Part shown: positions 17,958 to 45,293 of the stretch, in pieces
Layout: each line of letters begins with the position of its first letter
How positions within the stretch are numbered: the stretch's first letter is position 1
From: an uncultured Prevotellaceae bacterium
GTDB lineage: Bacteria; Bacteroidota; Bacteroidia; Bacteroidales; Muribaculaceae
DNA length: 64,000 nucleotides
Assembly: GCA_946406035.1 (NCBI GenBank)
Contig: CAMJJG010000001.1
Span: 62,001-126,000, forward strand
Direction of reading: 5' to 3'
Notes under the pieces: generated by a model
The model's database searches: none
The model's input: only the letters and a program-made list of their open reading frames with translations
Told to the model about the DNA's origin: nothing
Position numbers and translations under genes: made by a program

Positions 17958-17960
17958 TAC

Positions 17961-18881: not shown

Positions 18882-18891
18882 TTAAAGATTT

Positions 18892-19455: not shown

Positions 19456-19525
19456 TGTTTGGCATATTAGTATTCAAGAGAAGTAAGCCAAGCGCGAGGG
19501 AATACACTATCAGTTTCATGAAACA

Positions 19526-21573: not shown

Positions 21574-21627
21574 TAGCTTTAATCGCTTTAATGGATTATA
21601 GGGCAGAATTTAAGAGATTTTATTGAT

Positions 21628-22806: not shown

Positions 22807-22839
22807 TCACATTGCTACAAGTTGATTTTTCATGTGAGA

Positions 22840-23886: not shown

Positions 23887-23924
23887 ACCTTTAGATGCTG
23901 TAGATGTAATAAAAATAGTTGAGA

Positions 23925-24590: not shown

Positions 24591-24615
24591 TAGGTCTTTA
24601 AATCATCTGTTTGAT

Positions 24616-25761: not shown

Positions 25762-25827
25762 TTTAATAGACAGGTCTTTAAGCATTTTATAATTGCCGGT
25801 TGGTGCAGTAAAATAGCGCTCTCTAGG

Positions 25828-26850: not shown

Positions 26851-26906
26851 TTCGCCGCTTCATGTGGGGAAATTTACAAGTATAAGAATTAGTTAAATTT
26901 CGTGAA

Positions 26907-26965
26907 GTTTACATTAACGATACCAGTTTAGGCCTTAAGAAAGGGCCAGGATGTAAACGTTAATG
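26907..26965 (+). repeat. Overlapping inverted repeats reaching into the next start codon
   Basis: GTTTACAT (26907-26914) matches ATGTAAAC (26951-26958). The overlapping CATTAACG (26912-26919) matches CGTTAATG (26958-26965), which contains the ATG at 26963. Between them is a small GGCCTT/AAGGGCC hairpin. The two outer pairings exclude each other. Confidence 0.45.
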
Positions 26966-27766: not shown

Positions 27767-27807
27767 TTGGTTAAACATATCAAACTGTCAAAAATTATAA
27801 TCGACAA

Positions 27808-28944: not shown

Positions 28945-28967
28945 TTTTCTTTTGAATTTCTATTATT

Positions 28968-29585: not shown

Positions 29586-29589
29586 CAAT

Positions 29590-31884: not shown

Positions 31885-31897
31885 TAAGATTAATAAG

Positions 31898-32659
31898 ATG
31901 GAAACCAGTAATCATTCTCCTTTCTCCCTCGCGGGCAAGACGGTGCTGGTGACGGGAGCGTCATCGGGCATCGGCAGGGCTACGGCCATTGCCTGCTCGC
32001 GCATGGGAGCCCGTCTGGTGTTGACGGCCCGTGACCAGGACCGCCTGCTCGACACGTTCAACCAGCTTGCTACTTGTGGGCAGGATCACGTGCAGCTGAC
32101 TGCCGATTTGACCAACAGCGAGCAGCTTGAGGCTCTTGTCGCAGCCTTGCCTCATATCGAGGGCGCGGTGTTGTGTGCCGGCAATTCGACCACGTTGCCC
32201 TTGCAGTTTGGATCCCGCGAGAAGTTTGACGAGATGTTTGATGTCAATTTCTTTGCCCCAGTGGAGCTGATGCGCTTGATGTACAAGAAGAAGATCTTTG
32301 CCAAGGGCGCTTCGGTTGTGCTGCTGGCGTCAATTGGCGGCACACACAGTTTCATGCCCGGCAATGGCGTCTATGGCGCATCCAAGGCTGCCCTGAATGC
32401 CGTCATGAAATATGCCGCGCGTGAGTACGCTTCACGCCGTGTGCGTGTCAACAGCATCTGCCCGGGCATGGTCGATACTCCCCTTATCCATCGTGGCACG
32501 ATTACCGAGGAACAACTGGCCGAGGATGCCAAGAAATATCCTCTGGGCCGCTATGGCCAGCCCGACGATATCGCCTATGGCGCGGTCTATCTGCTGAGCG
32601 ACGCTGCCAGCTGGCTCACGGGGCACGATCTGGTGATAGACGGCGGCTTCTCAATATAG
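31898..32659 (+). CDS. Short-chain dehydrogenase/reductase (FabG-like)
   Basis: A 253-residue classical SDR, probably an NADPH-dependent reductase of a beta-keto or keto-sugar substrate. The cofactor loop is VLVTGASSGIGRATAIACSR (residues 17-36). The catalytic tyrosine and lysine are in GNGVYGASKAALNAVMKYAA, and the C-terminus DAASWLTGHDLVIDGGFSI is FabG-like. ATG 31898 is chosen because earlier in-frame starts lie inside the previous gene. The location, directly before ACP and KAS III genes, suggests that it reduces a beta-ketoacyl-ACP made by the module; this is inference. Confidence 0.87.
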   Translation: METSNHSPFSLAGKTVLVTGASSGIGRATAIACSRMGARLVLTARDQDRLLDTFNQLATCGQDHVQLTADLTNSEQLEALVAALPHIEGAVLCAGNSTTLPLQFGSREKFDEMFDVNFFAPVELMRLMYKKKIFAKGASVVLLASIGGTHSFMPGNGVYGASKAALNAVMKYAAREYASRRVRVNSICPGMVDTPLIHRGTITEEQLAEDAKKYPLGRYGQPDDIAYGAVYLLSDAASWLTGHDLVIDGGFSI

Positions 32660-32675
32660 TTTTTAGGGGGAATTA

Positions 32676-32706
32676 TTTGCTGATTAAAAAAATATCAGTA
32701 CTTTTG
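32676..32706 (+). promoter_or_regulatory. Internal promoter before the first ACP gene
   Basis: TTTG (32676-32679), 19-nt spacer, TACTTTTG (32699-32706): full consensus. It lies 17 nt past the SDR stop and starts a separate transcription unit for the acyl module. Confidence 0.75.
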
Positions 32707-32773
32707 TGCCAAGTTTTAATAGTTTTTGTTTTCTTTTGGGAAAATATTATTAGATTGACAAGGTCATAACTAT

Positions 32774-33007
32774 ATGAATATACAGGATTTTATTGAAAAC
32801 TTTGCTTCTCAGTTCGACGAGACAGAGCTTGAGGAATTTACGCCCGAAACCCATTTCAAGCAGCTCGACGAATGGTCATCACTCACCGCGCTATCAATTA
32901 TCGCCATGGTTGATGATGAATATGACGTCATCATCAAGGGTAATGACATCATCAATTCCGACACCATTCAGGACTTGTATGATGTTGTTGAAAGGCAGCA
33001 GAAGTAA
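32774..33007 (+). CDS. Acyl carrier protein (divergent, WSSL motif)
   Basis: 77 residues, strongly acidic, with the four-helix ACP pattern. The phosphopantetheine site lies in FKQLDEWSSLTALSIIAMVD; the usual Asp-Ser-Leu reads Ser-Ser-Leu, with Ser36 the expected attachment residue. It matches the ACP at 39536 at 38 of 77 positions without gaps. First gene after an internal promoter and 37 nt before a second, different ACP. Likely carries an acyl intermediate for glycan decoration; the loading enzyme is probably the AMP ligase nearby. Confidence 0.85.
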   Translation: MNIQDFIENFASQFDETELEEFTPETHFKQLDEWSSLTALSIIAMVDDEYDVIIKGNDIINSDTIQDLYDVVERQQK

Positions 33008-33044
33008 CCCCTATACGAATTAAATAGAATCTCCTCTATATTTC

Positions 33045-33275
33045 ATGGATACGCAGGTCAAGGAAATCATTGCCCGGGTCTTGAACGTGGATATGGGTGT
33101 GATTACCGACAATCTCTCATCGGGTGACATTCCCGAGTGGGACTCTGTTGGCAACCTGGCGATCATCAGTACCATAGAGCAGGAACTGAACATTGAATTC
33201 CCGCTCGAGGATTTGTTCGACTTGACCTCAGTGCAGTCAATCATCGACGAAGTCAATAAGTTGTTAAATGCGTGA
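33045..33275 (+). CDS. Acyl carrier protein
   Basis: 76 residues with a canonical site GDIPEWDSVGNLAIISTIEQ, Ser in Asp-Ser-Val, and an acidic helix II (ELNIEFPLEDLFDLTS). The start is MDTQVKEIIARVLNVD. Its last 8 bases overlap the start of the AMP-dependent ligase gene, which argues that the two proteins work as a pair, the ligase charging this ACP. Clearly distinct from FabF-pathway AcpP in length and sequence. Confidence 0.9.
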   Translation: MDTQVKEIIARVLNVDMGVITDNLSSGDIPEWDSVGNLAIISTIEQELNIEFPLEDLFDLTSVQSIIDEVNKLLNA

Positions 33276-34740
33276 TGTCACCCACAGCCGCCTGCTCTGC
33301 ACGATAGCAGAACATGCAGCGACATCCCCCTGTAAAGTTGCCCTAGTCGCTGGGGCATCCCGCATAACCTATACCCAGCTGGTGCATAATATACATTGTG
33401 CGGCTGGCTACCTTCATTCCCGGGGTATCAAGCGAGGTGACTATATTCTCTTGTCAGCCCAAAAAGAGCTGGAATTTGTCTATCTCTACTTTGCCGCCCA
33501 CCTTATGGGCGCTATTAACGTCGTGGTAGATGCCGCGGCCCCCCAAGAGCGTCTGGACTACATCAACGGCATCATTCATCCTGTAGCCGCGTTTGGAGCG
33601 GGGCAGAGTGATGTGGCTCAGAGCTTTACCTCATTTCATGATATACAGCTGGATCTTGATGCCGGCAAGATGGAATATGACTCGCATGAAATCTGCTCGA
33701 CCGATGTGGCCGATGTCATGTTCACGACCGGAACGACTGGCAATCCCAAGGGCGTCTGCCTGAGCCATGACAACATCGCTGGCTCGGCCAGCAACACCAA
33801 TGGCTTTATCCGAACAGCCTCCAACGACATCGAGGCGCTGGCTCTGCCGCTTAGCCACTCCTTCGGCCTCGGCCGATTGCGCTGTGTGTTGATGGCGGGT
33901 GCCACACTTGTCCTCGTCAGCAACTTTGCCAACCTCAAGGCCTTCTTCAACGTCCTGGCCACCGAGCAGGTGACAGGATTTGGCATGGTCCCCGCCGTGT
34001 GGCAATACATCAAGCGAATCAGCGGCAAGCGGATAGGCCAATTTGCCGATCAGCTGCGATATATCGAGTTTGGCAGCGCATTGCTCCCCATCCAGGACAA
34101 GCGATTGCTCATGGAACTCTTCCCTCACACGCGACTGTGCATGCACTATGGGCTCACCGAGGCTTCCCGGGCCATGTTCATCGAGTTTCATGAGAATCAA
34201 GACAACCTCAACTCGATCGGGCGCCCTGCCTCGTCGCTGGTCGAGGTCTCTGTGCGCGACGAGAACGGTTTACCCGTTGGTGACGGCGTTGACGGCGAGA
34301 TATGCGTGAGGGGTAACATGGTCTCACGTTCCTATTTCCTGGCACATGACAACGAGAATGCCTACTTTGGAGACTGGTTCAGGACCGGAGATTGGGGACA
34401 CCGCGACAGCGATGGCAACTTTTACCTGACGGGGCGCAAGAAAGAACTCATCAACGTCGGCGGCGAGAAAGTCAGCCCTGTGTCTATCGAAGATGCCATC
34501 ATCGGCACTGGTGGAATCCAGGAGTGTGCATGTGTCGCCATTCCCGACCCCAATGGGGTGCTCGGCGAGGTGCCCAAGGCCTTCCTGGTCAAGCAGGGGG
34601 CTACATTGACCGTTGACGAGGTCAAGCAGCGACTGTCTGCCGTGTTGCCCACCCATGAGATCCCTGTGCAGTGGGAATGGGTCGATAGCCTGCCCAAAAC
34701 ATCTTCGGGCAAAATCCAGCGTCAAAAATTGAAACAATAA
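33268..34740 (+). CDS. AMP-dependent acyl-ACP/CoA ligase
   Basis: A 490-residue ANL-superfamily adenylating enzyme that activates a carboxylic acid as acyl-AMP and passes it to a thiol. The phosphate loop is VMFTTGTTGNPKGVCLSHDN. Core motifs LCMHYGLTEASRAMF, DWFRTGDWGHRDSDGNFYLT and GRKKELINVGGEKVSP follow, and the catalytic C-terminal lysine is in PKTSSGKIQRQKLKQ. Overlap with the upstream ACP gene points to transfer onto that ACP, rather than CoA. The acid it selects is unknown. GC content is clearly higher than in the glycosyltransferase block. Confidence 0.92.
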   Translation: MRDVTHSRLLCTIAEHAATSPCKVALVAGASRITYTQLVHNIHCAAGYLHSRGIKRGDYILLSAQKELEFVYLYFAAHLMGAINVVVDAAAPQERLDYINGIIHPVAAFGAGQSDVAQSFTSFHDIQLDLDAGKMEYDSHEICSTDVADVMFTTGTTGNPKGVCLSHDNIAGSASNTNGFIRTASNDIEALALPLSHSFGLGRLRCVLMAGATLVLVSNFANLKAFFNVLATEQVTGFGMVPAVWQYIKRISGKRIGQFADQLRYIEFGSALLPIQDKRLLMELFPHTRLCMHYGLTEASRAMFIEFHENQDNLNSIGRPASSLVEVSVRDENGLPVGDGVDGEICVRGNMVSRSYFLAHDNENAYFGDWFRTGDWGHRDSDGNFYLTGRKKELINVGGEKVSPVSIEDAIIGTGGIQECACVAIPDPNGVLGEVPKAFLVKQGATLTVDEVKQRLSAVLPTHEIPVQWEWVDSLPKTSSGKIQRQKLKQ

Positions 34741-34752
34741 TCACATGATGAT

Positions 34753-35814
34753 ATGTCACAACTAACGATTAACAACGTGAGAATTGCCGGCATGAGCGCC
34801 TGTGTGCCATCTACTGTAGAAGACAACCTCACGTTGCCCATCTACAAGGATCAGAACGATGCACTCAAGGTGATTGCCTCAACAGGTATCGAGAGACATC
34901 ACAAGGTAGATCCCGGCACCACCGCATCTGACCTGACGGTCAAGGCCGTCGAGGCGTTGCTCAGTGATATGGGCTGGCAGCCCGAGGAAGTGGATTGCCT
35001 GGCCTATGTGTGCACGTCAAGGGACTTTATAGCCCCACAGACGGCATGTGTGCTCCAAGACCGCCTCAAGTTGCGCAACGATTGCTGCGTGTTTGACTTG
35101 CCATTCGGTTGCTCGGGGTGGGTTTACGGCATGAGCATTGTGGGCTCACTGATGTCCCATGGCACGTTCAAGCGCGCAATCCTCGTCGCTGCCGAGACTA
35201 ACACCCTCAACCGCAGCCAGCTCGATACCGCGGTGCGCCCGTTGTTTGGTGACGCGGCAACAGCGACCGCACTGGCGTTTGATCCCGAGCATGCGCGCCC
35301 AATGAATTTTGTGTATGGCGTTGATGGCAGCGGCTATCAGGCCGTGTGGGCGCCCTTTGGCGGCGTTCGCAATCCTGTTACTACCGAGGCTTTGCAGCAG
35401 CAGGAGGTCTCTCCTGGCTCCTACAGGCGTGGCGTGGACATGATTGTCAATGGCATGGACGTCTTTGGGTTTGCCATCAAGCGCCCGCCACAATCGCTCA
35501 AGGAACTGATTGCCACCTTTAATATAGATGTGGAAACGGTTGACCTGCTACTATTGCACCAGGCCAACAAATTCATCGATGAGAAAATCCGCAAGGCCAT
35601 CAAGATGCCGCCCGAGAAGACACCCTATTGCCTCGAGGAATATGGCAACGTCACCAGTGCCTCGATACCGTTGACAATGGTAACGCGGTGCCGCGAGAAG
35701 CTCTCGGGCGACGACAAGCATTGCATTGCATGTGGATTTGGTGTCGGCCTGGCATGGGCTAGTATGGAATTCTATGCCGGCAATGTTAAGGTCAGCGAGG
35801 TGATTACCTATTAA
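34753..35814 (+). CDS. KAS III-like 3-oxoacyl-ACP synthase
   Basis: A 353-residue thiolase-fold condensing enzyme of the FabH type. The full triad is present: Cys120 in DLPFGCSGWVYGMS, His269 in LLLLHQANKFIDEK, and Asn299 in YGNVTSASIPLTM. It starts 12 nt after the ligase stop. It shares its plan with the second KAS III at 39880, with Cys at the same position 120. Expected to extend or transfer an acyl group held on one of the neighbouring ACPs. It is unlikely to be the housekeeping FabH given its context. Confidence 0.92.
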   Translation: MSQLTINNVRIAGMSACVPSTVEDNLTLPIYKDQNDALKVIASTGIERHHKVDPGTTASDLTVKAVEALLSDMGWQPEEVDCLAYVCTSRDFIAPQTACVLQDRLKLRNDCCVFDLPFGCSGWVYGMSIVGSLMSHGTFKRAILVAAETNTLNRSQLDTAVRPLFGDAATATALAFDPEHARPMNFVYGVDGSGYQAVWAPFGGVRNPVTTEALQQQEVSPGSYRRGVDMIVNGMDVFGFAIKRPPQSLKELIATFNIDVETVDLLLLHQANKFIDEKIRKAIKMPPEKTPYCLEEYGNVTSASIPLTMVTRCREKLSGDDKHCIACGFGVGLAWASMEFYAGNVKVSEVITY

Positions 35815-35836
35815 TTAACTCAAAATCATTCTGGTT

Positions 35837-36937
35837 ATGGCCCATTTTATCAATACCAACAAGGAGTATTACTGGGGCGACTGGTACTTTAAGGACCATG
35901 TGATGGACCCCATGTTTGATTATAAGGCGCACAAGAAGGAGTTGTCGCCCTATTACGAGCAACGGGGATTCAAGGTCTCGATGATGTTTGCCGACTTCTT
36001 TTCACAAGTCAACGGCATCCACAGTGACAAGTACTTGTCGATGGATGTGTATTACTTCTTTGTCGTGCCGGCGCTCAACCGTTACGACTTCATCAATGCC
36101 TATCTCGACAAGAACATCTATACCGAGTTGTTCCCCAACGTGAAACAACCCGCCACCATCGTCAAGAACATCCACGGCCATTTCTACCACAATGGCGAAG
36201 AAATCACTGCCGACCAGGCTGTGACGGCGATTCAACAGGCTGGTGGGGAACTCATGATCAAGCCCACCGTCGAGACCTGTAACGGCGACGGCGTGGAGCA
36301 AATCGAGCTCTTTGGCACCGACCAGTTGAAGGATATGCTTGCCCAATACAAGCTCAACTTCATCGTTCAGGAAAAAGTGAAACAGCACCCCGACATACAG
36401 CGGGTGAATCCCACCTCATTGAACTCGATGCGGCTTTATACCTATCGCAAACTCGATGGCACCTGTGTCTTCCTGTATCCCTATGCGATGTTGCGCTACG
36501 GCGGCAAGGGGGCTATCAAGGACAACACTTCCAAGGGGGGAGGTACTTGCCTGATTGACACCAACGGCTTGGTCGATGATAAGGTTTACCGCTTCAAGAG
36601 CTTGTCGGTATCGTCTCTCAAGCAAGAGACGGGAACCGAACACCTGGTGATTCCCAATTATCACGGGGTCGTCAAGACACTGCTCGATGCACACAGCCGT
36701 TTGCCCTATTTTGATTTTGTGGGATGGGATGTGACGGTGCTGCCCGATGGAGAGCCGTTGCTCATCGAGTTCAACCTGGTGCCCGCTATCGAGGGGCCCC
36801 AGTTGATGGCCGGACCCATGTTTGCCGAACATCTCGACGAGGTCGTTGACAGGGCTCGCCGTGTTGAGTGCAGCAAGGTGCAGGCCAACAAGAAGGTGTT
36901 TGACAAGGGATCATCGTTCTACCTGCACATGCAGTAA
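35837..36937 (+). CDS. ATP-grasp enzyme of the sugar-transfer-associated type
   Basis: A 366-residue soluble protein resembling the 'sugar-transfer associated ATP-grasp' family (ATPgrasp_ST). Visible are the nucleotide-binding strand ELMIKPTVETCNGDGVEQIE, NFIVQEKVKQHP, and SLNSMRLYTYRKLDGTCVFL. The glycine-rich loop is KDNTSKGGGTCLIDTNGLV, and the metal-binding segment FDFVGWDVTVLPDGEPLLIE is followed by FNLVPAIEGPQ. Family enzymes join a carboxylate to an amine via an acyl phosphate. Here it could form an amide between an acid and an amino sugar or amino acid. It is not similar in detail to the ATP-grasp domain of the fusion at 29590. Confidence 0.85.
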   Translation: MAHFINTNKEYYWGDWYFKDHVMDPMFDYKAHKKELSPYYEQRGFKVSMMFADFFSQVNGIHSDKYLSMDVYYFFVVPALNRYDFINAYLDKNIYTELFPNVKQPATIVKNIHGHFYHNGEEITADQAVTAIQQAGGELMIKPTVETCNGDGVEQIELFGTDQLKDMLAQYKLNFIVQEKVKQHPDIQRVNPTSLNSMRLYTYRKLDGTCVFLYPYAMLRYGGKGAIKDNTSKGGGTCLIDTNGLVDDKVYRFKSLSVSSLKQETGTEHLVIPNYHGVVKTLLDAHSRLPYFDFVGWDVTVLPDGEPLLIEFNLVPAIEGPQLMAGPMFAEHLDEVVDRARRVECSKVQANKKVFDKGSSFYLHMQ

Positions 36938-36956
36938 ACCGGGCAATCGACAAGAG

Positions 36957-37538
36957 GTGGAGATTCGGCAGATTGTCAATCGTGTGTTCAACTCGTGCAG
37001 CTATGTGATCTCGTGGCGTGACCAGTCGTGGCTCGTCGATTGTGGCGACGTGCCGCCTGTGTTGGCAGCCATCAGGGGCACATTGAGTGGGGTGCTGTTG
37101 ACCCACGCCCATTTCGACCATATCTACGGCTTGAATCAACTGCTGTCGTTATTTCCTGGCCTGCCCATTTTTACCAACCAACACGGGAAGGACGGCCTGT
37201 TGAGCGACAAACTCAATTTCTCGAGGTATCACGAGGAGCCCTTTGTGCTAGACGTGCCAGAGTGTATCCATGTTGTTGATGATGGCGCGGTAATCAAGCT
37301 GATGGAGGGGGTGCTGGCACGCGCGGTGGCTACTCCTGGACATGGCCCCAGTTGCATCACATGGGTGGTAAACGATGCCGTTTTCACGGGCGACAGTTAC
37401 ATTCCCGGTGTCAAAACGGTTACCAACTTCCCACATTCTGATAAGGAACTCGCCCATCAAAGTGAAGATCATATCAGGCAGCTCGCGCGTGGCCGCAGGG
37501 TCTTTCCGGGCCATCCATCACAATTAACTGAAACATAA
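36957..37538 (+). CDS. Metallo-beta-lactamase fold hydrolase
   Basis: 193 residues from GTG 36957 (EIRQIVNRVFNSCSYVIS). The metal site VLLTHAHFDHIYGLNQ (HxHxDH), VATPGHGPSCITW, VFTGDSYIPGV and VFPGHPSQ supply all zinc ligands. The GTG start lies 19 nt past the previous stop; a start further upstream would overlap the ATP-grasp gene by over 100 nt and is rejected. Members with this compact layout hydrolyse thioesters, lactones or esters. Its place among ACP genes makes an acyl-thioester or lactone hydrolase plausible, by inference. Confidence 0.82.
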   Translation: MEIRQIVNRVFNSCSYVISWRDQSWLVDCGDVPPVLAAIRGTLSGVLLTHAHFDHIYGLNQLLSLFPGLPIFTNQHGKDGLLSDKLNFSRYHEEPFVLDVPECIHVVDDGAVIKLMEGVLARAVATPGHGPSCITWVVNDAVFTGDSYIPGVKTVTNFPHSDKELAHQSEDHIRQLARGRRVFPGHPSQLTET

Positions 37539-37554
37539 CAAAAAAGTATATATA

Positions 37555-38694
37555 ATGGCAAACAATAGAATTTTACTTTGTCTCGCCCACATGAGTGGGC
37601 ACGAAATGAAATACATCCAGGAGGCTTTTGACACCAACTGGGTTGTGCCACTCGGTCCCAACGTCAATGCCTTTGAGCAGGACTTGGAGCAATTGTGCGG
37701 TAACGGCAAGCATGTTGTCGTGCTCAGTTCGGGAACAGCGGCGATTCACCTGGCGCTTGTGCAGCTAGGTGTGGGACGTGACGATGAAGTCATTTGTCAG
37801 TCCATGACCTTCTCGGCGAGTGCCAATCCTATATGTTATCAGGGGGGCGTACCAGTGTTTGTCGACAGCGAGCGTGACTCATGGAACATCGACCCCAATC
37901 TGCTCGAGGATGCCATCAAGGACCGTATAGCCAAGACGGGTCGTAAACCCAAGGCCATCATTCCCGTTTACTTGTACGGCATGCCCGCCAGGATCGACGA
38001 CATCATAGCCATCTCACGTCGCTATGAGATTCCCGTCATCGAGGATTCGGCCGAGGCCTTCGGCTCGCGTTATCGCGGCCAGTTGTGCGGCACGTTCGGC
38101 GATTTTGGCATCATGAGTTTCAACGGCAACAAGATGATTACCACTAGTGGCGGTGGAGGCCTCATCTGTCCCGACGAGGCGACCAAGAAACGCACCATGT
38201 TCTATGCCACCCAGTCACGAGAGCCCTTCCCCTATTACCTGCACAAGGAGCTTGGCTACAACTATCGCATGAGCAACATCTGTGCCGGCATCGGCCGTGG
38301 CCAGATGTTTGTCCTCGAGGAGCACTTGGCTCATCACAGGCACCTGTGCGACCGTTATGTGGAACTGTTTGCCAACGTGGATGGCATCACCGTTCACACC
38401 AACCCCGACGAGCGCTGTGACAGCAACTACTGGCTCAACACAATCCTCATCGATCCCCACAAGACAGGAACCGATTATGAGACCGTTCGCCAGCATCTCG
38501 ACGCGTGCAACATCGAGAGCCGTCCGCTGTGGAAGCCCATGCACACCCAACCCGTGTTCAACGGCGCGCCAGCCTATGTCAACGGCGTGAGCGAGGAGTT
38601 GTTCTCGATGGGCCTCTGCCTTCCTAGCGGCCCTTGGGTGAGCGACGAGGATGTTGAGCGCGTGGCACGTGAAATCATCGCTTGCTGCAAGTGA
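37555..38694 (+). CDS. DegT/DnrJ/EryC1 family sugar aminotransferase (PglE-like)
   Basis: A 379-residue PLP-dependent aminotransferase. Motifs in order: VVVLSSGTAAIHLALVQLGV, QSMTFSASANPICYQGGVPV, IPVIEDSAEAFGSRYRGQLC, and the Schiff-base Lys193 in GIMSFNGNKMITTSGGGGLI. NYRMSNICAGIGRGQM and IESRPLWKPMHTQPVF follow. This pattern is that of enzymes that aminate C4 of UDP-4-keto-6-deoxy-HexNAc, such as PglE. It is directly followed by a PglD-like acyltransferase, as in bacillosamine-type pathways. The 4,6-dehydratase that would supply the keto sugar is not in the window. Confidence 0.9.
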   Translation: MANNRILLCLAHMSGHEMKYIQEAFDTNWVVPLGPNVNAFEQDLEQLCGNGKHVVVLSSGTAAIHLALVQLGVGRDDEVICQSMTFSASANPICYQGGVPVFVDSERDSWNIDPNLLEDAIKDRIAKTGRKPKAIIPVYLYGMPARIDDIIAISRRYEIPVIEDSAEAFGSRYRGQLCGTFGDFGIMSFNGNKMITTSGGGGLICPDEATKKRTMFYATQSREPFPYYLHKELGYNYRMSNICAGIGRGQMFVLEEHLAHHRHLCDRYVELFANVDGITVHTNPDERCDSNYWLNTILIDPHKTGTDYETVRQHLDACNIESRPLWKPMHTQPVFNGAPAYVNGVSEELFSMGLCLPSGPWVSDEDVERVAREIIACCK

Positions 38695-38730
38695 AAAACC
38701 TGATTATTAAAAAAACTTCAAGATAGATAT

Positions 38731-39372
38731 ATGAAAATCGCAATATATGGAGCGGGTGGATTTGGCAAGGAAGTGGCCTGCCTTATCGAGAGAATCAATA
38801 AGCACAACGGTGACTGGGAACTGATAGGTTTCTTTGACGACACCAAGCCGGCTGGCACTATGGTTTCACGATATGGTAAAGTGCTTGGAGGATTGGAGAC
38901 CCTCTGCCAGTACAACGAACCGCTGGCAGTGGCATTTGCTATCAACGAGAACAAGAGCGTTCGCCGCATCAGTGAGAGCATCGACAATGATAACATCTCG
39001 TTCCCCAACCTGATTGACCCGTCAACCTTCCTGGTCGATGAACTGGCTTTTGAAATAGGCAAGGGTAATATCATTCAGAACGACTGCATGGTCTCCTGTG
39101 ATGTGAAGATAGGTGATTTCAACCTCATCAATGATCATGTCGTCATTGGCCATGACAATGTCATCGGCGATTACAACGGCCTCATGCCTGGCGCCCATCT
39201 GTCTGGGGGTATCGTCATCGGCAACAACAATCTGTTGGGGGTCGCTAGTGTCGTCTTGCAGGGCATGGTCATCGGCAATGGAGTCACTCTGGGGGCCAAT
39301 AGCGTGCTCATGACCCAACCCAAGGACGACAGTACCTACCTGGGCGTGCCTGCAATGAAGTTTGATTTTTAG
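38731..39372 (+). CDS. PglD/NeuD-like sugar N-acyltransferase
   Basis: 213 residues. An N-terminal Rossmann-like half (MKIAIYGAGGFGKEVACLIE) binds the sugar nucleotide. A C-terminal left-handed beta-helix of hexapeptide repeats follows, with NDHVVIGHDNVIGDYNGLMP holding the expected catalytic His, then IGNGVTLGANSVLMTQPKDD. It ends YLGVPAMKFDF. Family enzymes acylate the 4-amino group of UDP-sugars, normally from acetyl-CoA. It is co-linear with the last third of the fusion protein at 29590. Two such enzymes plus dedicated ACPs suggest that at least one uses an unusual acyl donor. Confidence 0.9.
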   Translation: MKIAIYGAGGFGKEVACLIERINKHNGDWELIGFFDDTKPAGTMVSRYGKVLGGLETLCQYNEPLAVAFAINENKSVRRISESIDNDNISFPNLIDPSTFLVDELAFEIGKGNIIQNDCMVSCDVKIGDFNLINDHVVIGHDNVIGDYNGLMPGAHLSGGIVIGNNNLLGVASVVLQGMVIGNGVTLGANSVLMTQPKDDSTYLGVPAMKFDF

Positions 39373-39421
39373 TTGCACCACTTTACCATATCTGGTAGAA
39401 AACTGCAAGAAAAAACAATAA

Positions 39422-39443
39422 TTATGGCCCAAAAATGCCATAA
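39422..39443. repeat. Hairpin upstream of the second ACP promoter
   Basis: TTATGGC (39422-39428) pairs perfectly with GCCATAA (39437-39443) over an 8-nt loop. There is no T-run. It may be an operator or a weak 3' hairpin of the preceding gene. Confidence 0.35.
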
Positions 39444-39479
39444 GCAATGATAAAAAGTGTGCAATTAAGATTTTTTGTG

Positions 39480-39487
39480 TATTTTTG
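39480..39487 (+). promoter_or_regulatory. -7 box before the second ACP sub-operon
   Basis: TATTTTTG matches TAnnTTTG, 48 nt before ATG 39536. A -33 element is not clear at the expected distance. The 164-nt gap here is the longest within block C. Confidence 0.55.
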
Positions 39488-39535
39488 CATGCTCGTAAAA
39501 ATATCTTTAGGTATTTTTCGTTTTATATTCGTAGA

Positions 39536-39769
39536 ATGGATTTAGAACACTTTATAGTGAATTTTGCGGATCTGTTTGAAGAAACAGATTGCGACTCAAT
39601 AAAGGCCAATACCTGCTTCAAGGATTTGGAGGAATGGTCGTCTTTGCTTGCTTTGTCGGTCATTGCTATGATCGATGAGGAATATGATGTTGAGTTCCGT
39701 GGTGATGACATTCGCGGAAGCAAAACCGTTGAGGACCTTTACAAAATTGTGAAATCTAGAGTAGGGTAG
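39536..39769 (+). CDS. Acyl carrier protein (divergent, WSSL motif)
   Basis: 77 residues starting MDLEHFIVNFADLFEETDCD. The attachment region FKDLEEWSSLLALSVIAMID again has Ser-Ser-Leu instead of Asp-Ser-Leu (Ser36). Ungapped match to the ACP at 32774, 38 of 77 residues. ATG 39536 is preferred over an in-frame ATG at 39489 because the predicted transcription start lies only about 5-8 nt from the latter. It heads the second ACP/KAS III sub-operon. Confidence 0.85.
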   Translation: MDLEHFIVNFADLFEETDCDSIKANTCFKDLEEWSSLLALSVIAMIDEEYDVEFRGDDIRGSKTVEDLYKIVKSRVG

Positions 39770-39879
39770 GGCTTGAGAAATATGAGACCGTTCTGTCACC
39801 ATGTCTAGCTAGTGGCAGGTTGGTCTTGTATGTGTGGCTGTTCTTGTTACATTCTAACCTTTTTTCGCCAATAATCATT

Positions 39880-40929
39880 ATGGCCAACATAACCTTTAAC
39901 GCAGTGGGCATTAGGGCATTGAGCGCCTGTGTTCCTCACGACATCGTTTATAACCGAGATTTAGGCTATCTAATTCCTGAAGAAGAGATTGAAAAAGTGA
40001 TAAGCAATATCGGCATCGCCGAGCGCCGCATCGCTCCCGATGACGTTACTGCGAGCGACCTGTGCTATAAGGCCGCAGTGCAACTGATGGCCGACAATGA
40101 TATTGATCCCGAGAGTATTGACCTGTTGCTGTTCATGAGTCAAACTCAGGATTATCGCATTCCTGCTACATCGTGCATCTTGCAGCATCGCCTGGGCCTG
40201 CCCAAATCCACCATGTGCTTTGACATATCGCTGGGATGCTCGGGATATCTGTATGCCTTGAGCACCGCGTTTGCCTATGCCTCCCTGCCCGGCATTAATC
40301 GCGTGCTGTTGCTCGACGGCGAGACCTTCTCCAAAATCGTCAACCGCCGCGACAAGGTGGACTGGCCGCTCTATGGCGACGCCGGAACGGCGACCCTGGT
40401 CGAGAAAGGTGACTTCGGGCAATCATCGTTCCTGCTTAACACCGACGGCAGCGGCGAGAACACCCTCAAGATACACGCTGGCATGCGCAATCCCATTACC
40501 GCTCAATCCTGTGTCGAGCGTGAGCAAGAAGATGGCAACATTCGCAGCGACCTCGAGGTATTCATGGATGGCATGGATGTCTTCAACTTCGCCATCAGCA
40601 AGGTCCCGCGCTGCGTCAAGCAGGTGCTGGCCGATGCTGGCAAGACGGTCGATGACGTCGACTATCTGGTCTTCCATCAGGCCAACCGCTTCATGATGGA
40701 CTTCTTTGTCAAGAAGCTCAAGATTGACCCCGAGCGGGTGCCCTATTGCATTAGCAAGTATGGTAATACCAGCAGCTCGTCGGTGCCCTTGACGGTCGCT
40801 AGTGAGCTGGTGGGTAAACTCGACGGAACCAAGAACGTGGTCTTCAGCGCATTTGGTGCCGGCTTGAGCTGGGGCGCCGCCCTCTTGTCGATGCATGATT
40901 GCAAGGTGTCTCCTGTTATTGAGTATTGA
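39880..40929 (+). CDS. KAS III-like 3-oxoacyl-ACP synthase
   Basis: 349 residues from ATG 39880 (MANITFNAVGIRALSACVPH). FabH-type triad: Cys120 in DISLGCSGYLYALS, His266 in YLVFHQANRFMMDF, Asn296 in KYGNTSSSSVPLTV. The substrate-side segment GETFSKIVNRRDKVDWPLYG is conserved in KAS III enzymes of glycan-acyl pathways. Its stop codon overlaps the ATG of the VOC gene (TGATG). It is a paralogue of the enzyme at 34753 but not a near-identical copy, so the two probably handle different substrates. The in-frame TTG/GTG starts upstream are rejected. Confidence 0.91.
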   Translation: MANITFNAVGIRALSACVPHDIVYNRDLGYLIPEEEIEKVISNIGIAERRIAPDDVTASDLCYKAAVQLMADNDIDPESIDLLLFMSQTQDYRIPATSCILQHRLGLPKSTMCFDISLGCSGYLYALSTAFAYASLPGINRVLLLDGETFSKIVNRRDKVDWPLYGDAGTATLVEKGDFGQSSFLLNTDGSGENTLKIHAGMRNPITAQSCVEREQEDGNIRSDLEVFMDGMDVFNFAISKVPRCVKQVLADAGKTVDDVDYLVFHQANRFMMDFFVKKLKIDPERVPYCISKYGNTSSSSVPLTVASELVGKLDGTKNVVFSAFGAGLSWGAALLSMHDCKVSPVIEY

Positions 40930-41339
40930 TGGAAAACCTGTTGAGATTCCACCACATCGGCATCGCGTGTCGCGATATCAGCAAAACCGTGGCGTTCTAC
41001 ACGTCGATGGGCTATGCCGCGTCACCTGTCGTGCCCGATGAGTTACAACATGTCAATGTCTGTTTCCTTGACAAGGAGGGAGCCCCCCGCATCGAGCTGC
41101 TCGAACCCTTGGATGAGGAAAACCCGGTAGCTCGCACCCTGGCTGCCATGGGTGTGTCACCCTATCACATGTGCTACGAGGTGGATGACGTCAACGAGGC
41201 CATTTCTGCCCTGCGTCGCCAGCGTTTCATCCTCGTGAGTGGCCCTGTGGCAGCATGCGCGATGCAGGACAGACTCATCGCGTTCTTGTTCAATAAGAAT
41301 ACTGGACTCATCGAACTCGTTGAGTCTCCCAAACAGTAA
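40929..41339 (+). CDS. VOC superfamily protein, epimerase/glyoxalase-like
   Basis: 136 residues with two beta-alpha-beta-beta-beta modules. The metal-binding pattern is present: His in LLRFHHIGIACRDISKTVAF, Glu in APRIELLEPLDEE, His in SPYHMCYEVDD and Glu in TGLIELVESP. This arrangement resembles methylmalonyl-CoA epimerase and glyoxalase I more than dioxygenases. ATG overlaps the KAS III stop by one base, and its own stop overlaps the next start (TAATG). A role in epimerising or isomerising an acyl thioester of the module is inferred. Confidence 0.85.
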   Translation: MENLLRFHHIGIACRDISKTVAFYTSMGYAASPVVPDELQHVNVCFLDKEGAPRIELLEPLDEENPVARTLAAMGVSPYHMCYEVDDVNEAISALRRQRFILVSGPVAACAMQDRLIAFLFNKNTGLIELVESPKQ

Positions 41340-42349
41340 TGACCGACTTGCTGTTGACCTATATCGTCCCGGTCTATAATACGGCCCCCTATGTCGTCAA
41401 GTGCCTTCAGTCACTTGTCAATCAGGGCTTTGAGCCTGATCAGTATGAAATCATTGCTGTTGATGACGGTTCCACCGACGACAGCAGGGCCCGAATCGAG
41501 GCTTTTGCTCAAGAGCACCCCCAGGTGCGCCTCTTGTGTCAAGCCAATGCTGGCGTGAGTGCTGCCCGCAACCTTGCGCTTGATCATGCCCGTGGACGCT
41601 ATGTTCAGTTTATCGACAGCGACGACTATCTGGCCGATGGCGCGATGGCTCAGCTGGTGCGCCGGGCCGTGGACGAGAACCTGGACGTGTTGATGTTCAA
41701 CTTTGATTGGGTTGATGTCGATGGCCAGGCGCTCAAGGTATCTAAGCCCAGAGACGACATGCAATCGACACCCGTAATGACCGGGGTCGAGTTTCTGGAT
41801 GCCTTCACGCTGATGCAATACGTCTGCTGGTATATTGTCCGTCTGGACTGCCTTAACAAGCGGGAGATTCGTTTCAACACCTCGCTCATTGCCTGCGAGG
41901 ACGGGGAAATGTCCCCTCGCTTCATGCTCTATGCCAGCCGTGTCGCTTATTGTGACGCCTCTCCCTACTGCTATGTCAATCGTGGCGACAGCGCCATGAA
42001 TAATACTAACAGGGAACACCTGCGCCGACGCATTTTCAGCCAGATCGACGCAGCCCAATCGATTGACCGAACCATCAACCAATTTGAGGCCGCGACTGGA
42101 CGTGACGTGCCGGCTAGCGTGGCGGGGCTGAGAAACCTTTACCTCTACTTCAGCATGACCAAGGCTCTAACATGTGGCTGTGTGGATGACGCGGTTTCCC
42201 GCATCCGCAGTGCGGGCTTGTATCCCTTCCCCTGCATCGGTCCCGAGACCAATTACATGGGTGCCAAGTGGAAGGTGATTCACCGCTTGATGATGCATCC
42301 GGGCCTGTGGTCTGTGTTGAGCAGGGTCTACAGCATGATGAATAAATGA
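41339..42349 (+). CDS. Family 2 glycosyltransferase
   Basis: A 336-residue GT-A enzyme: MTDLLLTYIVPVYNTAPYVV, nucleotide site AVDDGSTDDSRARIEAFAQE, metal site QFIDSDDYLADGAMAQLV, and TSLIACEDGEMSPRFMLYAS. It is the only glycosyltransferase inside the acyl module and is translationally coupled on both sides (TAATG before, ATGA after). Its GC content matches the module, not the AT-rich glycosyltransferase block. It may transfer the specially acylated sugar. Confidence 0.88.
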   Translation: MTDLLLTYIVPVYNTAPYVVKCLQSLVNQGFEPDQYEIIAVDDGSTDDSRARIEAFAQEHPQVRLLCQANAGVSAARNLALDHARGRYVQFIDSDDYLADGAMAQLVRRAVDENLDVLMFNFDWVDVDGQALKVSKPRDDMQSTPVMTGVEFLDAFTLMQYVCWYIVRLDCLNKREIRFNTSLIACEDGEMSPRFMLYASRVAYCDASPYCYVNRGDSAMNNTNREHLRRRIFSQIDAAQSIDRTINQFEAATGRDVPASVAGLRNLYLYFSMTKALTCGCVDDAVSRIRSAGLYPFPCIGPETNYMGAKWKVIHRLMMHPGLWSVLSRVYSMMNK

Positions 42350-43944
42350 CCATGACAACTTTTATCTTTCGCAATCAGACGGTTGAACCCTTCTTTGGCG
42401 ATGAGGGGGTAACCTATTCGGGATATGGCGACATCAGCCTTGTCCCCTCCGACGTGGACCGCTACATCTGGTTCTATCAAGTACCAGTCAATGCCAATGC
42501 CGTGCAGCTGGCCCAGGAAATCCTCTCTTATCAGGACAAGTTGGACCTGGTGCTCAAGAGCGTTGATCCACACAAGCCGTTCATCATCTTTTCCTTGGTC
42601 AACCTGTTCCCGTTAAGGTTGACTGGAGACGCGGTCACTGTCGATCATGCTGTCATGGCGTTTAATCGTTATGTGACCGAGAGGGTCGTTGGAGCCACCC
42701 ATGTCAAGTGGGTCGATTTCGGAGATTTCACCTCGCGCTACAGTGACGTGAACCTGGTGAACTGGAAGTTTTATCTCATGTCACAGACGCTGCTCAATCC
42801 CAAGCTGGCCCATGACTTCAAGTCGTGGTGGAGTGGGGTGGAACGTGGCCTCGCACTGCAGCGCAAGAAGTGCCTGGTTCTGGACCTGGATAACACCCTC
42901 TGGGGCGGTGTGCTGGGCGAGGATGGCGTTGACGGTATCAAGCTGGGAGGTGATTATCCCGGCAAGGCGTTCTCCTACTGGCAGCAGGCGTTGTTGCAAC
43001 TGGCCAACAATGGTGTGATATTGACCGTGTGCAGCAAGAACAACGAGGCCGATGTCCAGGAAGCTTGGGACAACAACCCGTTCATGGTGCTCAAGCGCGA
43101 ACACTTCAGCGCCACGCGCATCAACTGGCAGGACAAGGTGAGCAACATTCGCGACATGGCCGACGAGCTCAACATCGGGCTAGACAGCATGGTCTTTATC
43201 GATGACAATCCTGCCGAGCGGGAACTTGTCAAGCAGATGCTGCCACAAGTCGAAGTCCCCGATTTCCCTGATAAACCGCATCAGCTCATGCCGTTCTTCA
43301 AGGGCCTGGTGGAACGCTATTTCCGCATCTATGCTGTGACCGACGAGGATCGGCTCAAGACGCAGCAGTATCGTGCCAATGCCATGCGCAGGTCCCAGCA
43401 AGCGCGTTTTGCCGATTTGGACAGTTACCTCGAGAGCCTGTCCATGCAGCTTGACATCATTCCGGCCGATGAGCACAACCTGCCCCGCATAGCCCAGATG
43501 ACGCAAAAGACCAATCAATTCAACCTCACCACCCGCCGCTACAGCGAGGCCGATGTGCAACAGCGCATCGATGAGGGATGGCGCATCTATTGCATGAGCG
43601 TGAAAGACCGGTTTGGCGATAACGGGATTACTGGAACCGTCTTTCTGGAACCTCTCGACTGGGACAAGATGGGCATCGATTCTCTGCTGCTCAGTTGCCG
43701 GGTGCTCGGAAAAGGGCTCGAAGATGCCTTTATCGCATCGATTTTCAACCAGTTGAGGCTCGAGGGCGTGAGGCGCATCGTGGCCGACTACCTGCCAACG
43801 GCCAAGAATGGGCAGACGGCCAACTTCTATGACCGCTTGGGCATGAATTGCGTCAGCGTCGATGATGATGGCGCCAAGCATTACGAGATGGATCTCGATC
43901 ATGCAATAGAAATTAAGAATTATTATAACATTAATATATTATGA
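42346..43944 (+). CDS. FkbH-like HAD enzyme with GNAT-type C-terminal domain
   Basis: 532 residues. FkbH enzymes dephosphorylate 1,3-bisphosphoglycerate and load the glyceryl unit onto an ACP. Residues about 1-170 are the family's N-terminal region (SWWSGVERGLALQRKKCLVL at its end). The HAD core follows with LVLDLDNTLWGGVLGEDGVD (Asp180, Asp182), GVILTVCSKNNEADVQEAWD and MVFIDDNPAERELVKQMLPQ. The C-terminal acyltransferase-like part has TQKTNQFNLTTRRYSEADVQ and LLLSCRVLGKGLEDAFIASI. Start overlaps the preceding stop (ATGA), and its stop overlaps the following ACP start (ATGA), matching the usual FkbH-ACP pairing. Confidence 0.93.
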   Translation: MTMTTFIFRNQTVEPFFGDEGVTYSGYGDISLVPSDVDRYIWFYQVPVNANAVQLAQEILSYQDKLDLVLKSVDPHKPFIIFSLVNLFPLRLTGDAVTVDHAVMAFNRYVTERVVGATHVKWVDFGDFTSRYSDVNLVNWKFYLMSQTLLNPKLAHDFKSWWSGVERGLALQRKKCLVLDLDNTLWGGVLGEDGVDGIKLGGDYPGKAFSYWQQALLQLANNGVILTVCSKNNEADVQEAWDNNPFMVLKREHFSATRINWQDKVSNIRDMADELNIGLDSMVFIDDNPAERELVKQMLPQVEVPDFPDKPHQLMPFFKGLVERYFRIYAVTDEDRLKTQQYRANAMRRSQQARFADLDSYLESLSMQLDIIPADEHNLPRIAQMTQKTNQFNLTTRRYSEADVQQRIDEGWRIYCMSVKDRFGDNGITGTVFLEPLDWDKMGIDSLLLSCRVLGKGLEDAFIASIFNQLRLEGVRRIVADYLPTAKNGQTANFYDRLGMNCVSVDDDGAKHYEMDLDHAIEIKNYYNINIL

Positions 43945-44168
43945 ATTTAAACGACAAGGTTTTAGCAATTATGCGCGAGGTGTTTGGCATCGAGGAAATT
44001 TCCACCGATGTCTCCCAGAAGAATTGTGAACGCTGGGACTCCTTGCGGCATCTCACACTGGCTTCGGAACTCGAGGATGCCTTTGATATCGAGCTTGAGC
44101 CCGAAGAGATTGCCGAGATGACCGATTTCTCGCGGGTAGTTGAGAAACTCAATGAGAAGTTGAGCTAA
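43941..44168 (+). CDS. Acyl carrier protein paired with the FkbH enzyme
   Basis: 75 residues: MNLNDKVLAIMREVFGIEEI, then the phosphopantetheine site in KNCERWDSLRHLTLASELED, an intact Asp-Ser-Leu, and the acidic recognition helix FDIELEPEEIAEMTDFSRVV. Overlap of its ATG with the FkbH stop argues for a stoichiometric pair; glyceryl-S-ACP is the predicted loaded form. It differs from the WSSL-type ACPs in this locus. Confidence 0.93.
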   Translation: MNLNDKVLAIMREVFGIEEISTDVSQKNCERWDSLRHLTLASELEDAFDIELEPEEIAEMTDFSRVVEKLNEKLS

Positions 44169-44255
44169 GGCGACTCAACAAGCATCAGGGCATTTTATTT
44201 GTACCCCTCTCATGTGGGGTGGCAAGATACTGTAAGGGAGAGGGAGAGTGGTTTG

Positions 44256-45275
44256 ATGGCACGGCAGCGCATCGCCTATATTGATTTCATGAAGTGCCTG
44301 TGCATCATGCTCATCGTGATGTACCACATCGACCATGACTTTTTCAACTATTTGTTGCCCAATCTGAACAATGCTTTGCAGGCTTTCCGCCTGCCCATGT
44401 ACTATTTCATTTCGGGCATCTTCTTTAAGCTCTACGGCGGCTTTGCCGACTTCACGCGGCGCAAGGTGAACAATATCCTTGTGCCGTTTGTGTTTTTTGT
44501 GGTGTTTGCCTTTGTTGTGCGCTCGGTTGAGCATTGCTTGCGGCTGGCCGTTGGTGCCGATGGCTTGGACATTTCTCCCGTCCAGCTTGTCGAGCCGTTT
44601 TATCTGCGGTATTGGGCCAATACCACCCCCATCTGGTTCTTGCTAAGCCTGTTCTGGGTCAACATCATTTTCTATGCCTTGCAGCGGTTCATCAAGCCGC
44701 TGTGGGGGCTGTTGGCGGCGACTGTGGCTATTTCGGTGGTTGGCTACTTGTTGGGAATCAACAAGATTGAGCTTCCCCTCATGTTGGACTCCTCGCTTGT
44801 CGCGCTTCCCTATTTCGTGCTGGGATGGGGTGTGAAGCGATTGGGAGGCGTGGAGCCAACGCGCTACGACAAGTGGGGCGTCTTGTGCTTGGCCGCGGTA
44901 GCGGTGCCCATCTATTGCGTGAGCCAATTCATGAACCTTCATTTCCAGGTCCTGCCACCCTACTGGAAACTCTATCTCTTGCCGTTTGTGGCCATCTTGT
45001 CGCTTTTCTGGGCTTGCAAGCCGTTGCCGCGCATCCCCGTGTTCTGCCACTATGGGCGCTATTCCCTCATTATCCTGGGCACCCATCCGTTACTTTTCCT
45101 GCCATTGCGTTTCGTGTTCGTTCACTTCGGCATGCAGCCGGGTGTGGCGCTCACCCTGATGGTCTTTACCCTCACCATGGCCATCGAGTGGCCCTTAATA
45201 TGGTTGCTCAAGACCTATGCGCCTCGTTTCACGGCCCAGGAGCCGTTCTTCAAGCAAGGGTGGAGGGTGCGTTAA
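44256..45275 (+). CDS. Acyltransferase 3 family membrane protein
   Basis: 339 residues, about ten membrane segments. Start MARQRIAYIDFMKCLCIMLI with His24 and His27 in VMYHIDHDFF, then LPMYYFISGIFFKLYGGFAD and FTRRKVNNILVPFVFFVVF. ATG 44256 follows an AG-rich ribosome binding stretch (GGGAGAGGGAGAG); an earlier in-frame start at 44199 adds hydrophilic sequence unlike the family. Last enzyme of the acyl module, it may move an acyl group to a glycan hydroxyl at the membrane. Donor unknown. Confidence 0.87.
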   Translation: MARQRIAYIDFMKCLCIMLIVMYHIDHDFFNYLLPNLNNALQAFRLPMYYFISGIFFKLYGGFADFTRRKVNNILVPFVFFVVFAFVVRSVEHCLRLAVGADGLDISPVQLVEPFYLRYWANTTPIWFLLSLFWVNIIFYALQRFIKPLWGLLAATVAISVVGYLLGINKIELPLMLDSSLVALPYFVLGWGVKRLGGVEPTRYDKWGVLCLAAVAVPIYCVSQFMNLHFQVLPPYWKLYLLPFVAILSLFWACKPLPRIPVFCHYGRYSLIILGTHPLLFLPLRFVFVHFGMQPGVALTLMVFTLTMAIEWPLIWLLKTYAPRFTAQEPFFKQGWRVR

Positions 45276-45293
45276 TCATGATTTGAATCCACT

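Follow-up and report, generated by a model that had tools for sequence, protein, structure and literature searches.

Genes of the locus

We analysed a window of 64,000 nucleotides of contig CAMJJG010000001.1 (positions 62,001 to 126,000 of the forward strand; G000:C1:62001-126000) from an uncultured Prevotellaceae bacterium, assembly GCA_946406035.1, with a size of 2.23 Mb and a completeness of 74.7%. The subject is a unit at 28968-45275 in which an FkbH-like enzyme, acyl carrier proteins (ACPs) and ketoacyl-ACP synthases of type III (KAS III) stand among genes of glycan synthesis. All genes of the unit lie on the + strand, mostly with short gaps or overlaps between them, including 4-base overlaps of FkbH with ACP4, of a family 2 glycosyltransferase (GT2) with FkbH and of the synthase KAS2 with a vicinal oxygen chelate (VOC) protein. 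Its upstream end is formed by a phosphoglycosyltransferase at 28968 and a fusion of ATP-grasp, haloacid dehalogenase (HAD) and PglD domains. Since glycosyltransferases, EpsG and a CDP-deoxysugar set lie upstream of the unit, with glucose-1-phosphate cytidylyltransferase, CDP-glucose 4,6-dehydratase and RmlC each exceeding the curated cut-off, the surroundings are those of a polysaccharide locus. The closest named relatives are metagenome-assembled genomes (MAGs) under the labels Prevotellaceae, Muribaculaceae or Bacteroidales; several bear ruminant-gut names, and the source bacterium is probably from a ruminant gut. Gene calls were checked with Pfam and NCBIfam profiles, and the genes that carry the argument are the following:

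28968..29585, + strand: phosphoglycosyltransferase of the PglC/WcaJ type (PF02397), which by homology would begin a lipid-linked glycan
29590..31884, + strand: fusion of a PylC-like ATP-grasp enzyme, a HAD hydrolase and a PglD-like N-acyltransferase (open reading frame from 29530, likely start 29590)
31898..32659, + strand: FabG-like short-chain dehydrogenase/reductase (SDR), candidate 3-ketoacyl-ACP reductase (Pfam/NCBIfam)
32774..33007, + strand: ACP1, ACPa type, motif WSSL (Pfam)
37555..38694, + strand: PglE/LegC-like pyridoxal-phosphate aminotransferase (DegT type), putatively for a 4-amino sugar (Pfam/NCBIfam)
38731..39372, + strand: PglD2, N-acyltransferase of the NeuD/PglD/VioB type (Pfam/NCBIfam)
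39536..39769, + strand: ACP3, ACPa type, motif WSSL (PF00550, 20.0 bits, narrowly missing the cut-off of 20.8)
39880..40929, + strand: KAS2, of the FkbH-linked KAS III clade (Pfam, tree; open reading frame from 39820)
40926..41339, + strand: VOC protein, similar to methylmalonyl-coenzyme A (CoA) epimerase (Glyoxalase_4; epimerase model under its cut-off)
42346..43944, + strand: predicted FkbH-like glyceryl transferase/phosphatase, HAD-IIIC, motif DLDNTLW (TIGR01686)
43941..44168, + strand: ACP4, ACPb type, motif WDSL, partner of FkbH (Pfam, adjacency)

Every gene named in a first-pass annotation of this DNA was present with intact active-site residues, as judged by Pfam, NCBIfam and alignments. 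The translations of its four ACP genes all keep the serine (WSSL, WDSV, WSSL, WDSL), and both of its KAS III-like enzymes, KAS1 and KAS2, retained the complete Cys-His-Asn triad when aligned to Escherichia coli FabH. FkbH scored 294 bits with TIGR01686 (cut-off 146.65), while its N-terminal domain of about 170 residues had no PDB sequence match. Residues H10, E57, H81 and E130 of the VOC protein, which by comparison with methylmalonyl-CoA epimerase we take to be metal ligands, were invariant in 60 of 60 aligned sequences. The two PglD domains, at the C-terminus of the fusion and at 38731, are identical at 127 of 213 residues; both contain PglD_N and hexapeptide repeats over the Pfam cut-offs and fall just short of that of TIGR03570 (159.8 and 151.7 versus 160.8 bits). 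ACP1 and ACP3 share 38 of 77 residues. The aminotransferase reached 354 bits with the LegC-family model, under its cut-off of 420, and its best solved relatives are 1o61 and 4ztc, presumably both PglE of Campylobacter jejuni. The fusion reading frame encodes 764-784 amino acids; eight relatives have a protein of 417-489 amino acids with the PglD part at its end, and in L130 and L247 the ATP-grasp and HAD parts are separate genes.

In the whole 2.23-Mb assembly, two of the three KAS III C-terminal matches and three of the four PP-binding matches fall in this locus. A chance cluster of genes was rejected, because many other genomes share this gene order.

Recurrence of the gene set and the FkbH-linked KAS2 clade

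The set phosphoglycosyltransferase-PglD-ACPa-SDR-KAS2-(VOC)-FkbH-ACPb-DegT recurs in Bacteroidales glycan loci, one of Bacteroides fragilis included. FkbH was found in 41 of 297 family genomes, with 28 places near full length at at least 48% identity, of which 20 loci were read in detail. A scan of named genomes gave 513 candidates, and the best 80 FkbH loci were retained; they include Bacteroides fragilis Q1F2, Bacteroides fluxus, Odoribacter lunatus and spirochaetes. Several of the 80 are near copies from one genus, and the organism labels of L102, L108, L110 and L117, all MAG contigs, may result from wrong binning. The first recognised same-strand gene after FkbH was an ACP4-type carrier in 78 of the 80 loci, with a gap of at most 44 bp in 76, and the two FkbH genes without a following ACP sit at contig ends. 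The D-x-DNT-x-W pattern of FkbH was found in 79 of the loci, and a pattern search recovered the serine motif in 166 of 174 ACPs.

Co-occurrence was counted in 55 loci with enough flank, the 25 with short flanks being counted apart; the 8-kb limit misses the SDR of window-type loci, so that SDR counts are too low there. KAS2 and ACPa were present together in 44 of the 55 and both absent in 11, the pattern to be expected with ACPa working for KAS2 and ACPb for FkbH. PglD was found in 42 and DegT in 38, and together with the ACP after FkbH these counts bear out the co-occurrence of FkbH, ACPs, KAS III and PglD that the first-pass annotation had proposed to look for. Since VOC was present in 32 of the 44 KAS2 loci and in 8 of the 11 KAS2-less ones, it belongs with FkbH rather than with KAS2. 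The listed genes had been taken as one module; instead, they separate into one half for glycerate loading, another for extension and an optional block (ACP1-ACP2-AMP ligase-KAS1-ATP-grasp).

The VOC-FkbH-ACPb cassette also occurs without a ketosynthase, and an acyltransferase directly adjoins it in 7 of the 18 KAS2-less loci among the 80: AAC(3)-like in L087 and L118, GNAT in L102 (weak match), L104 and L111, PglD in L124 and a hexapeptide protein in L116. Outside the 80, L049 combines PglD with a KAS2-less cassette. In L119 a hexapeptide protein lies farther from the cassette, its neighbours in L093, L117, L120 and L130 had no Pfam match, and L112, L113, L127, L128, L131 and L132 are truncated or outside the neighbour scan. 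In 12 of the 44 KAS2 loci, both halves come with a single KAS and a single PglD (>90 bits, counted up to 9 kb away, a limit that misses the second PglD of window-type loci), which favours one joint acyl product as the simplest case.

The association of KAS2 with FkbH was also followed from the side of KAS2, and this reverse test is confined to KAS2-first searches of the 297 family genomes and of 295 genomes of the order. The family genomes gave 30 KAS2 places at E <= 1e-90; all 25 with at least 53% identity sit at most 1.6 kb from FkbH, and the five at 47-49% had no FkbH within stretches of 7-17 kb. The order added one further FkbH-linked place with 62% identity (L195), and the surroundings of all but 7 of the 23 other order-level KAS2 places were read. 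The ACP-KAS-SDR half, with or without PglD and DegT, thus also exists without FkbH, which was absent from 19 of 20 KAS2 stretches (7-17 kb each, KAS at 42-49% identity), the 20th being L195. One FkbH-less stretch, L198, carries three KAS, two ACPs, two SDRs, PglD and DegT, and possibly makes a longer polyhydroxyacyl chain.

A tree was built from 69 KAS sequences of 37 of the 80 FkbH loci and 19 FkbH-less stretches, the loci being hand-picked so that near copies and KAS2-less loci were left out. The 38 FkbH-linked KAS2 rows formed a single clade with SH-aLRT support of 100 and zero FkbH-less rows. Eight FkbH-linked rows fell outside it, of the KAS1 type with one labelled KAS2 (L100), and the KAS1 of the window lies elsewhere on a long branch. 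The Cys-His-Asn triad was kept in window KAS1 and KAS2, in 38 of 38 clade rows and in all rows examined. W32, R36 and R151 are CoA-contact residues of E. coli FabH, of which W32 and R151 stack on CoA. R151 is replaced by K in 34 of the 38 clade rows and kept in 13 of 13 FkbH-less rows; at position 36 the clade has N, S, T or A and the FkbH-less rows have K; and W32 is gone in all 38. This comparison covers 13 of the 20 FkbH-less KAS2-labelled rows, the 7 more distant ones being left out. The three residues of housekeeping FabH are changed in window KAS1 and KAS2, and all three are kept in the other FabH-like protein of the genome, on contig C14. With its CoA-contact residues changed in this way, the KAS2 clade would fit an ACP-bound starter.

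The full window arrangement with the ligase block was found in 11 loci (L035, L039-L048) as far as their stretches reach, that of L041 starting inside the ATP-grasp gene; the exceptions are L039, without a PglD2 match, and L042, without the membrane acyltransferase. The block is absent from L036-L038 and is therefore optional, and in other genera (L051, L053) the locus is reduced to phosphoglycosyltransferase-PglD-ACP-SDR-KAS2-VOC-FkbH-ACP-DegT. In other genera, several small loci have the phosphoglycosyltransferase next to PglD. Of the 14 window-type loci L035-L048, 13 have the Acyl_transf_3 gene next to ACP4. The block and the remaining genes of the unit are:

33045..33275, + strand: ACP2, motif WDSV, carrier of the optional ligase block (Pfam)
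33268..34740, + strand: AMP-dependent acyl ligase (Pfam/NCBIfam)
34753..35814, + strand: KAS1, second KAS III, triad complete (Pfam; long tree branch)
35837..36937, + strand: sugar-transfer-associated ATP-grasp enzyme (PF14397)
36957..37538, + strand: hydrolase of the metallo-beta-lactamase fold, possibly an acyl-ACP editing thioesterase (Pfam/NCBIfam; start picked by eye, open reading frame from 36822)
41339..42349, + strand: GT2 glycosyltransferase, between VOC and FkbH in window-type loci
44199..45275, + strand: Acyl_transf_3 membrane O-acyltransferase (Pfam)

Glyceroyl glycans and related systems

FkbH of this family was present in 3 of 41 genomes grouped with a Tannerella MAG. Genome G592 has the order pseB, pseC, aldo-keto reductase, cytidylyltransferase (pseF by position), class III aminotransferase, a 183-amino-acid reading frame, pseH, VOC, FkbH, ACP, pseG and pseI, and in this Tannerella genome VOC-FkbH-ACP lies between pseH and pseG at L246:8382-10639. 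Seven G592 proteins, of 445, 90, 167, 382, 605, 402 and 255 amino acids, equal in length the published GtfS, MtfJ, MtfO, GtfM, asparagine-synthetase-like protein, GtfI and GtfE of Tannerella forsythia ATCC 43037, in this order; for GtfL and MtfY the lengths deviate by 6 and 26 residues, differences that could come from alternative start codons. From gene order and protein lengths, we infer that G592 holds the T. forsythia cluster for Pse5Am7Gra. As in the window, VOC, FkbH and ACP of the same families are found beside an N-acyltransferase, here PseH, which we take to acylate the C7 nitrogen of pseudaminic acid (Pse). The T. forsythia glycan terminates in Pse5Am7Gra, with N-glyceroyl on C7 of Pse (PMC6120980), and the sections available to us report the gene for this group as elusive and connect none with it (PMC6120980, PMC6388019). 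Between the window and the T. forsythia-like genome, 250 of 528 residues of FkbH, 63 of 133 of VOC and 29 of 72 of ACP are identical. The cluster is unlike the window in its sugar, pseudaminic acid, and in that 20 kb of L246 held no match to KAS2, SDR or ACPa. This match is the strongest evidence that the FkbH family supplies glyceroyl, and the VOC-FkbH-ACP of L246 is a candidate for the glyceroyl genes still missing from the T. forsythia cluster.

Campylobacter jejuni provides a second, weaker parallel, drawn by annotation and not by sequence, in which fabH2 presumably neighbours the fkbH-domain locus. Its flagellin glycosylation locus contains the fkbH-domain gene cj1302 and the epimerase-annotated cj1301, and the glycan carries di-O-methylglyceroyl-Pse, with a glycerate-derived N-acyl group (PMC7099621, PMC3068675); acpP3 is Cj1304 (PMC4435418). 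Unlike that of the window, this is a flagellin glycan, and in the sections available its genes for the group are unproven, Cj1295 being the one shown to be required.

The window shares its combination of ACP, KAS, ketoreductase, PglD and PglE in a glycan locus, by family and not by comparison of the wfp sequences, with Flavobacterium psychrophilum, which belongs to the same phylum as the window organism. Carrier protein and ligase also occur in the O-antigen locus of Vibrio cholerae O1, where the perosamine genes rfbK-O serve an N-acyl group; to our knowledge these are of other enzyme families, with no FkbH or KAS III. In F. psychrophilum, wfpC-G with pglE and pglF provide an ACP, two ketoacyl-ACP synthases, a ketoacyl-ACP reductase and a PglD homologue, and are predicted to make 3,5-dihydroxyhexanoyl and transfer it to Qui2NAc4N, the structure having been determined by nuclear magnetic resonance (PMC6519341). 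The repeat contains L-FucNAc and Qui2NAc4NR, and the term FkbH is absent from the main text on the R-group (PMC6519341). The portion of this source that we used names one ACP, and the starter would, by our reasoning, be acetyl; the window adds FkbH, a dedicated ACP and VOC. The window module would thus work in the manner of the R-group module of F. psychrophilum, but from another starter. Strains of F. psychrophilum with different putative R-group genes differ in the antigenicity of their lipopolysaccharide (PMC6519341, sections available), and N-acyl groups therefore help to decide serotype. Three further genes of the B. fragilis locus may be read as an L-FucNAc pathway: one of the UDP-GlcNAc-dehydratase type, one for an epimerase that carries a Polysacc_synt_C domain and one for a UDP-GlcNAc 2-epimerase.

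Searches of open-licence papers on FkbH with surface polysaccharides found no description of the module, which is weak evidence of novelty, and no bacterial polysaccharide with a trihydroxypentanoyl group was named in the titles and first abstract lines of papers listed for trihydroxypentanoyl or glyceroyl glycans.

The predicted acyl group and its alternatives

From the gene content, motifs, synteny and coupling observed, we consider, with a probability of about 0.55, that the carrier proteins of the locus serve to assemble an unusual N-acyl group, which is then attached to an amino sugar in a surface polysaccharide; the reactions and the product are predicted. FkbH would take glyceryl from 1,3-bisphosphoglycerate, remove the phosphate and leave the glyceryl on ACP4, a loading suggested by its family and by the T. 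forsythia match. The VOC protein might invert the alpha-carbon of glyceryl-ACP, much as methylmalonyl-CoA epimerase acts on its thioester, and this is a weaker suggestion. KAS2 would then take glyceryl off ACP4 and condense it with malonyl on an ACPa-type carrier (ACP3 and/or ACP1), and the SDR would reduce the 3-keto group to give 3,4,5-trihydroxypentanoyl-ACPa or a stereoisomer as the predicted product. A FabH-like enzyme has been proposed to use glyceryl-ACP in tetromadurin synthesis (PMC7489565, in part). By homology, the DegT enzyme of the locus, together with a PglF-type dehydratase encoded outside it in the genome, would provide UDP-2-acetamido-4-amino-2,4,6-trideoxyhexose, PglD would transfer the acyl group to its 4-amino group, and the phosphoglycosyltransferase at 28968 would load the acylated sugar on the lipid carrier. 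The optional block of window-type loci, with their second PglD, probably serves to introduce or modify a further acyl group, which could be ligase-started. Carrier-protein acyl synthesis for a PglD-type N-acyltransferase acting on a 4-amino sugar had been proposed in the first-pass annotation, and the T. forsythia match, the FkbH-ACP adjacency and the KAS2-FkbH coupling strengthen it. They also favour the glycerate-derived part of the proposal that the N-acyl group is glycerate-derived or cyclic; the cyclic part finds no such support.

In a wider form, to which we give about even odds, VOC-FkbH-ACP is a portable Bacteroidales cassette that donates glyceroyl to unrelated sugar N-acyltransferases (PglD, PseH/GNAT, AAC(3)-like), is the system missing in T. 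forsythia, and in many loci, that of B. fragilis included, works with a KAS III clade that extends glyceroyl to a C5 polyhydroxy acyl group.

Several results weigh against these proposals. Three of the 28 full-length family FkbH places (G252, G271, G065) have no KAS2 at E <= 1e-90, and the coupling is partly due to selection, because the FkbH-linked KAS2 rows were found via FkbH. W32 is also gone in 13 of 13 FkbH-less relatives, in a loosely aligned column, so that only positions 36 and 151 separate the KAS2 clade from them; the use of glyceryl-ACP by KAS2 is deduced from this coupling and these residue changes. Twelve of the 44 KAS2 loci are without VOC, and epimerisation is therefore not essential. 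No acyltransferase was seen directly beside the cassette in 11 of the 18 KAS-less loci, some of them truncated or outside the scan. Finally, no full-length PglF-type dehydratase was found in this 74.7%-complete assembly. A PF02719 match that spans at least positions 1-291 occurs in all nine relatives with FkbH that were searched; in eight of them the protein has 640-683 amino acids, the full-length ones of B. fluxus having only 347-360.

It is rather unlikely, though worth serious attention, that the locus makes two acyl groups, with FkbH-ACP4-VOC giving N-glyceroyl and KAS2-ACPa-SDR an ordinary 3-hydroxyacyl group (e.g. 3-hydroxybutyryl) from acetyl and malonyl, each placed by a different acyltransferase at a different position. 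Such a division would agree with the occurrence of each half on its own, FkbH without KAS2 in 11 of 55 loci and the KAS half without FkbH in 19 of 20 stretches, and with the two PglD domains and the Acyl_transf_3 enzyme of the window. However, 12 of the 44 KAS2 loci have both halves with one KAS and one PglD, and the tie of the KAS2 clade to FkbH, with its changed CoA-contact residues, would be unexpected with acetyl-CoA. FkbH might load another acyl phosphate in place of glyceryl, for instance lactyl, as relatives of FkbH do in polyketide synthesis; we regard this as improbable, since the T. forsythia-like relative, with 250 of 528 identical residues, sits in an N-glyceroyl glycan cluster.

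Two further alternatives draw on polyketide pathways. FkbH-ACP pairs have been proposed to make a hydroxymalonyl-ACP extender in polyketide clusters (PMC7489565, in part), as in methoxymalonyl pathways, but that route uses two dehydrogenases to oxidise glyceryl-ACP, with an O-methyltransferase in the methoxymalonyl-ACP operon, and the SDR is the sole dehydrogenase gene recognised in the module. None was recognised directly beside VOC-FkbH-ACP in the KAS-less L104, L118 and L246, an aldo-keto reductase gene lying five genes upstream in L246, and over 28968-46349 Pfam and NCBIfam recognised no methyltransferase and one dehydrogenase, the SDR. We consider an extender of this kind highly improbable at this locus. 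Least credible is a tetronate or other cyclic acyl group, in which FkbH, ACP and KAS III would couple a beta-ketoacyl chain with glyceryl. The tetromadurin operon for glycerate utilisation (mad7, mad8, mad16-18, five genes) shares these three families and a proposed use of glyceryl-ACP; it forms a ring and releases a polyketide chain, and its five genes include no PglD, PglE or glycosyltransferase (PMC7489565, in part). In the window, three of the five functions (FkbH, ACP, FabH-like) were identified, and Pfam and NCBIfam recognised no Agg4-type acyltransferase or Agg5-type dehydratase. The window PglD and Acyl_transf_3, we assume, are of families other than Agg4. Moreover, the SDR, which stands beside KAS2 in smaller loci and suggests reduction there, would take away the needed ketone, a ring would by our reasoning leave no free carboxyl for an amide, and PglD (42 of 55) and DegT (38 of 55) are frequent neighbours.

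If the extension of glyceryl on the way to an N-acylated sugar is correct, a KAS III clade would act on glyceryl-ACP outside antibiotic synthesis, and a polyketide-like step would use a glycolytic intermediate inside polysaccharide synthesis. The gene signature for glycerate-derived groups would make such chemistry predictable from gut Bacteroidales genomes and link capsule chemistry to the glycolytic pool. For T. forsythia, it offers concrete candidate genes for the glyceroyl group and makes that question testable.

A second, longer type of FkbH (about 580 amino acids) was seen in L033, in L034 and at G589:C1:1139145-1140188, with an ACP-like reading frame beside it in L033 and L034, and it occurs in B. 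fragilis too; the solved FkbH relative 3slr (BF1531) is likewise labelled BF. At 16079-19455 of the window, a CDP-glucose pathway (cytidylyltransferase, 4,6-dehydratase), an epimerase and RmlC indicate a CDP-deoxysugar in the same locus. The G+C content is 0.44 in the glycosyltransferase block at 13801-29500 versus 0.50-0.54 in the remaining window, which may reflect an exchange of that block. On the - strand at 49635-50975, this Bacteroidales genome encodes a protein with a dockerin type I domain.

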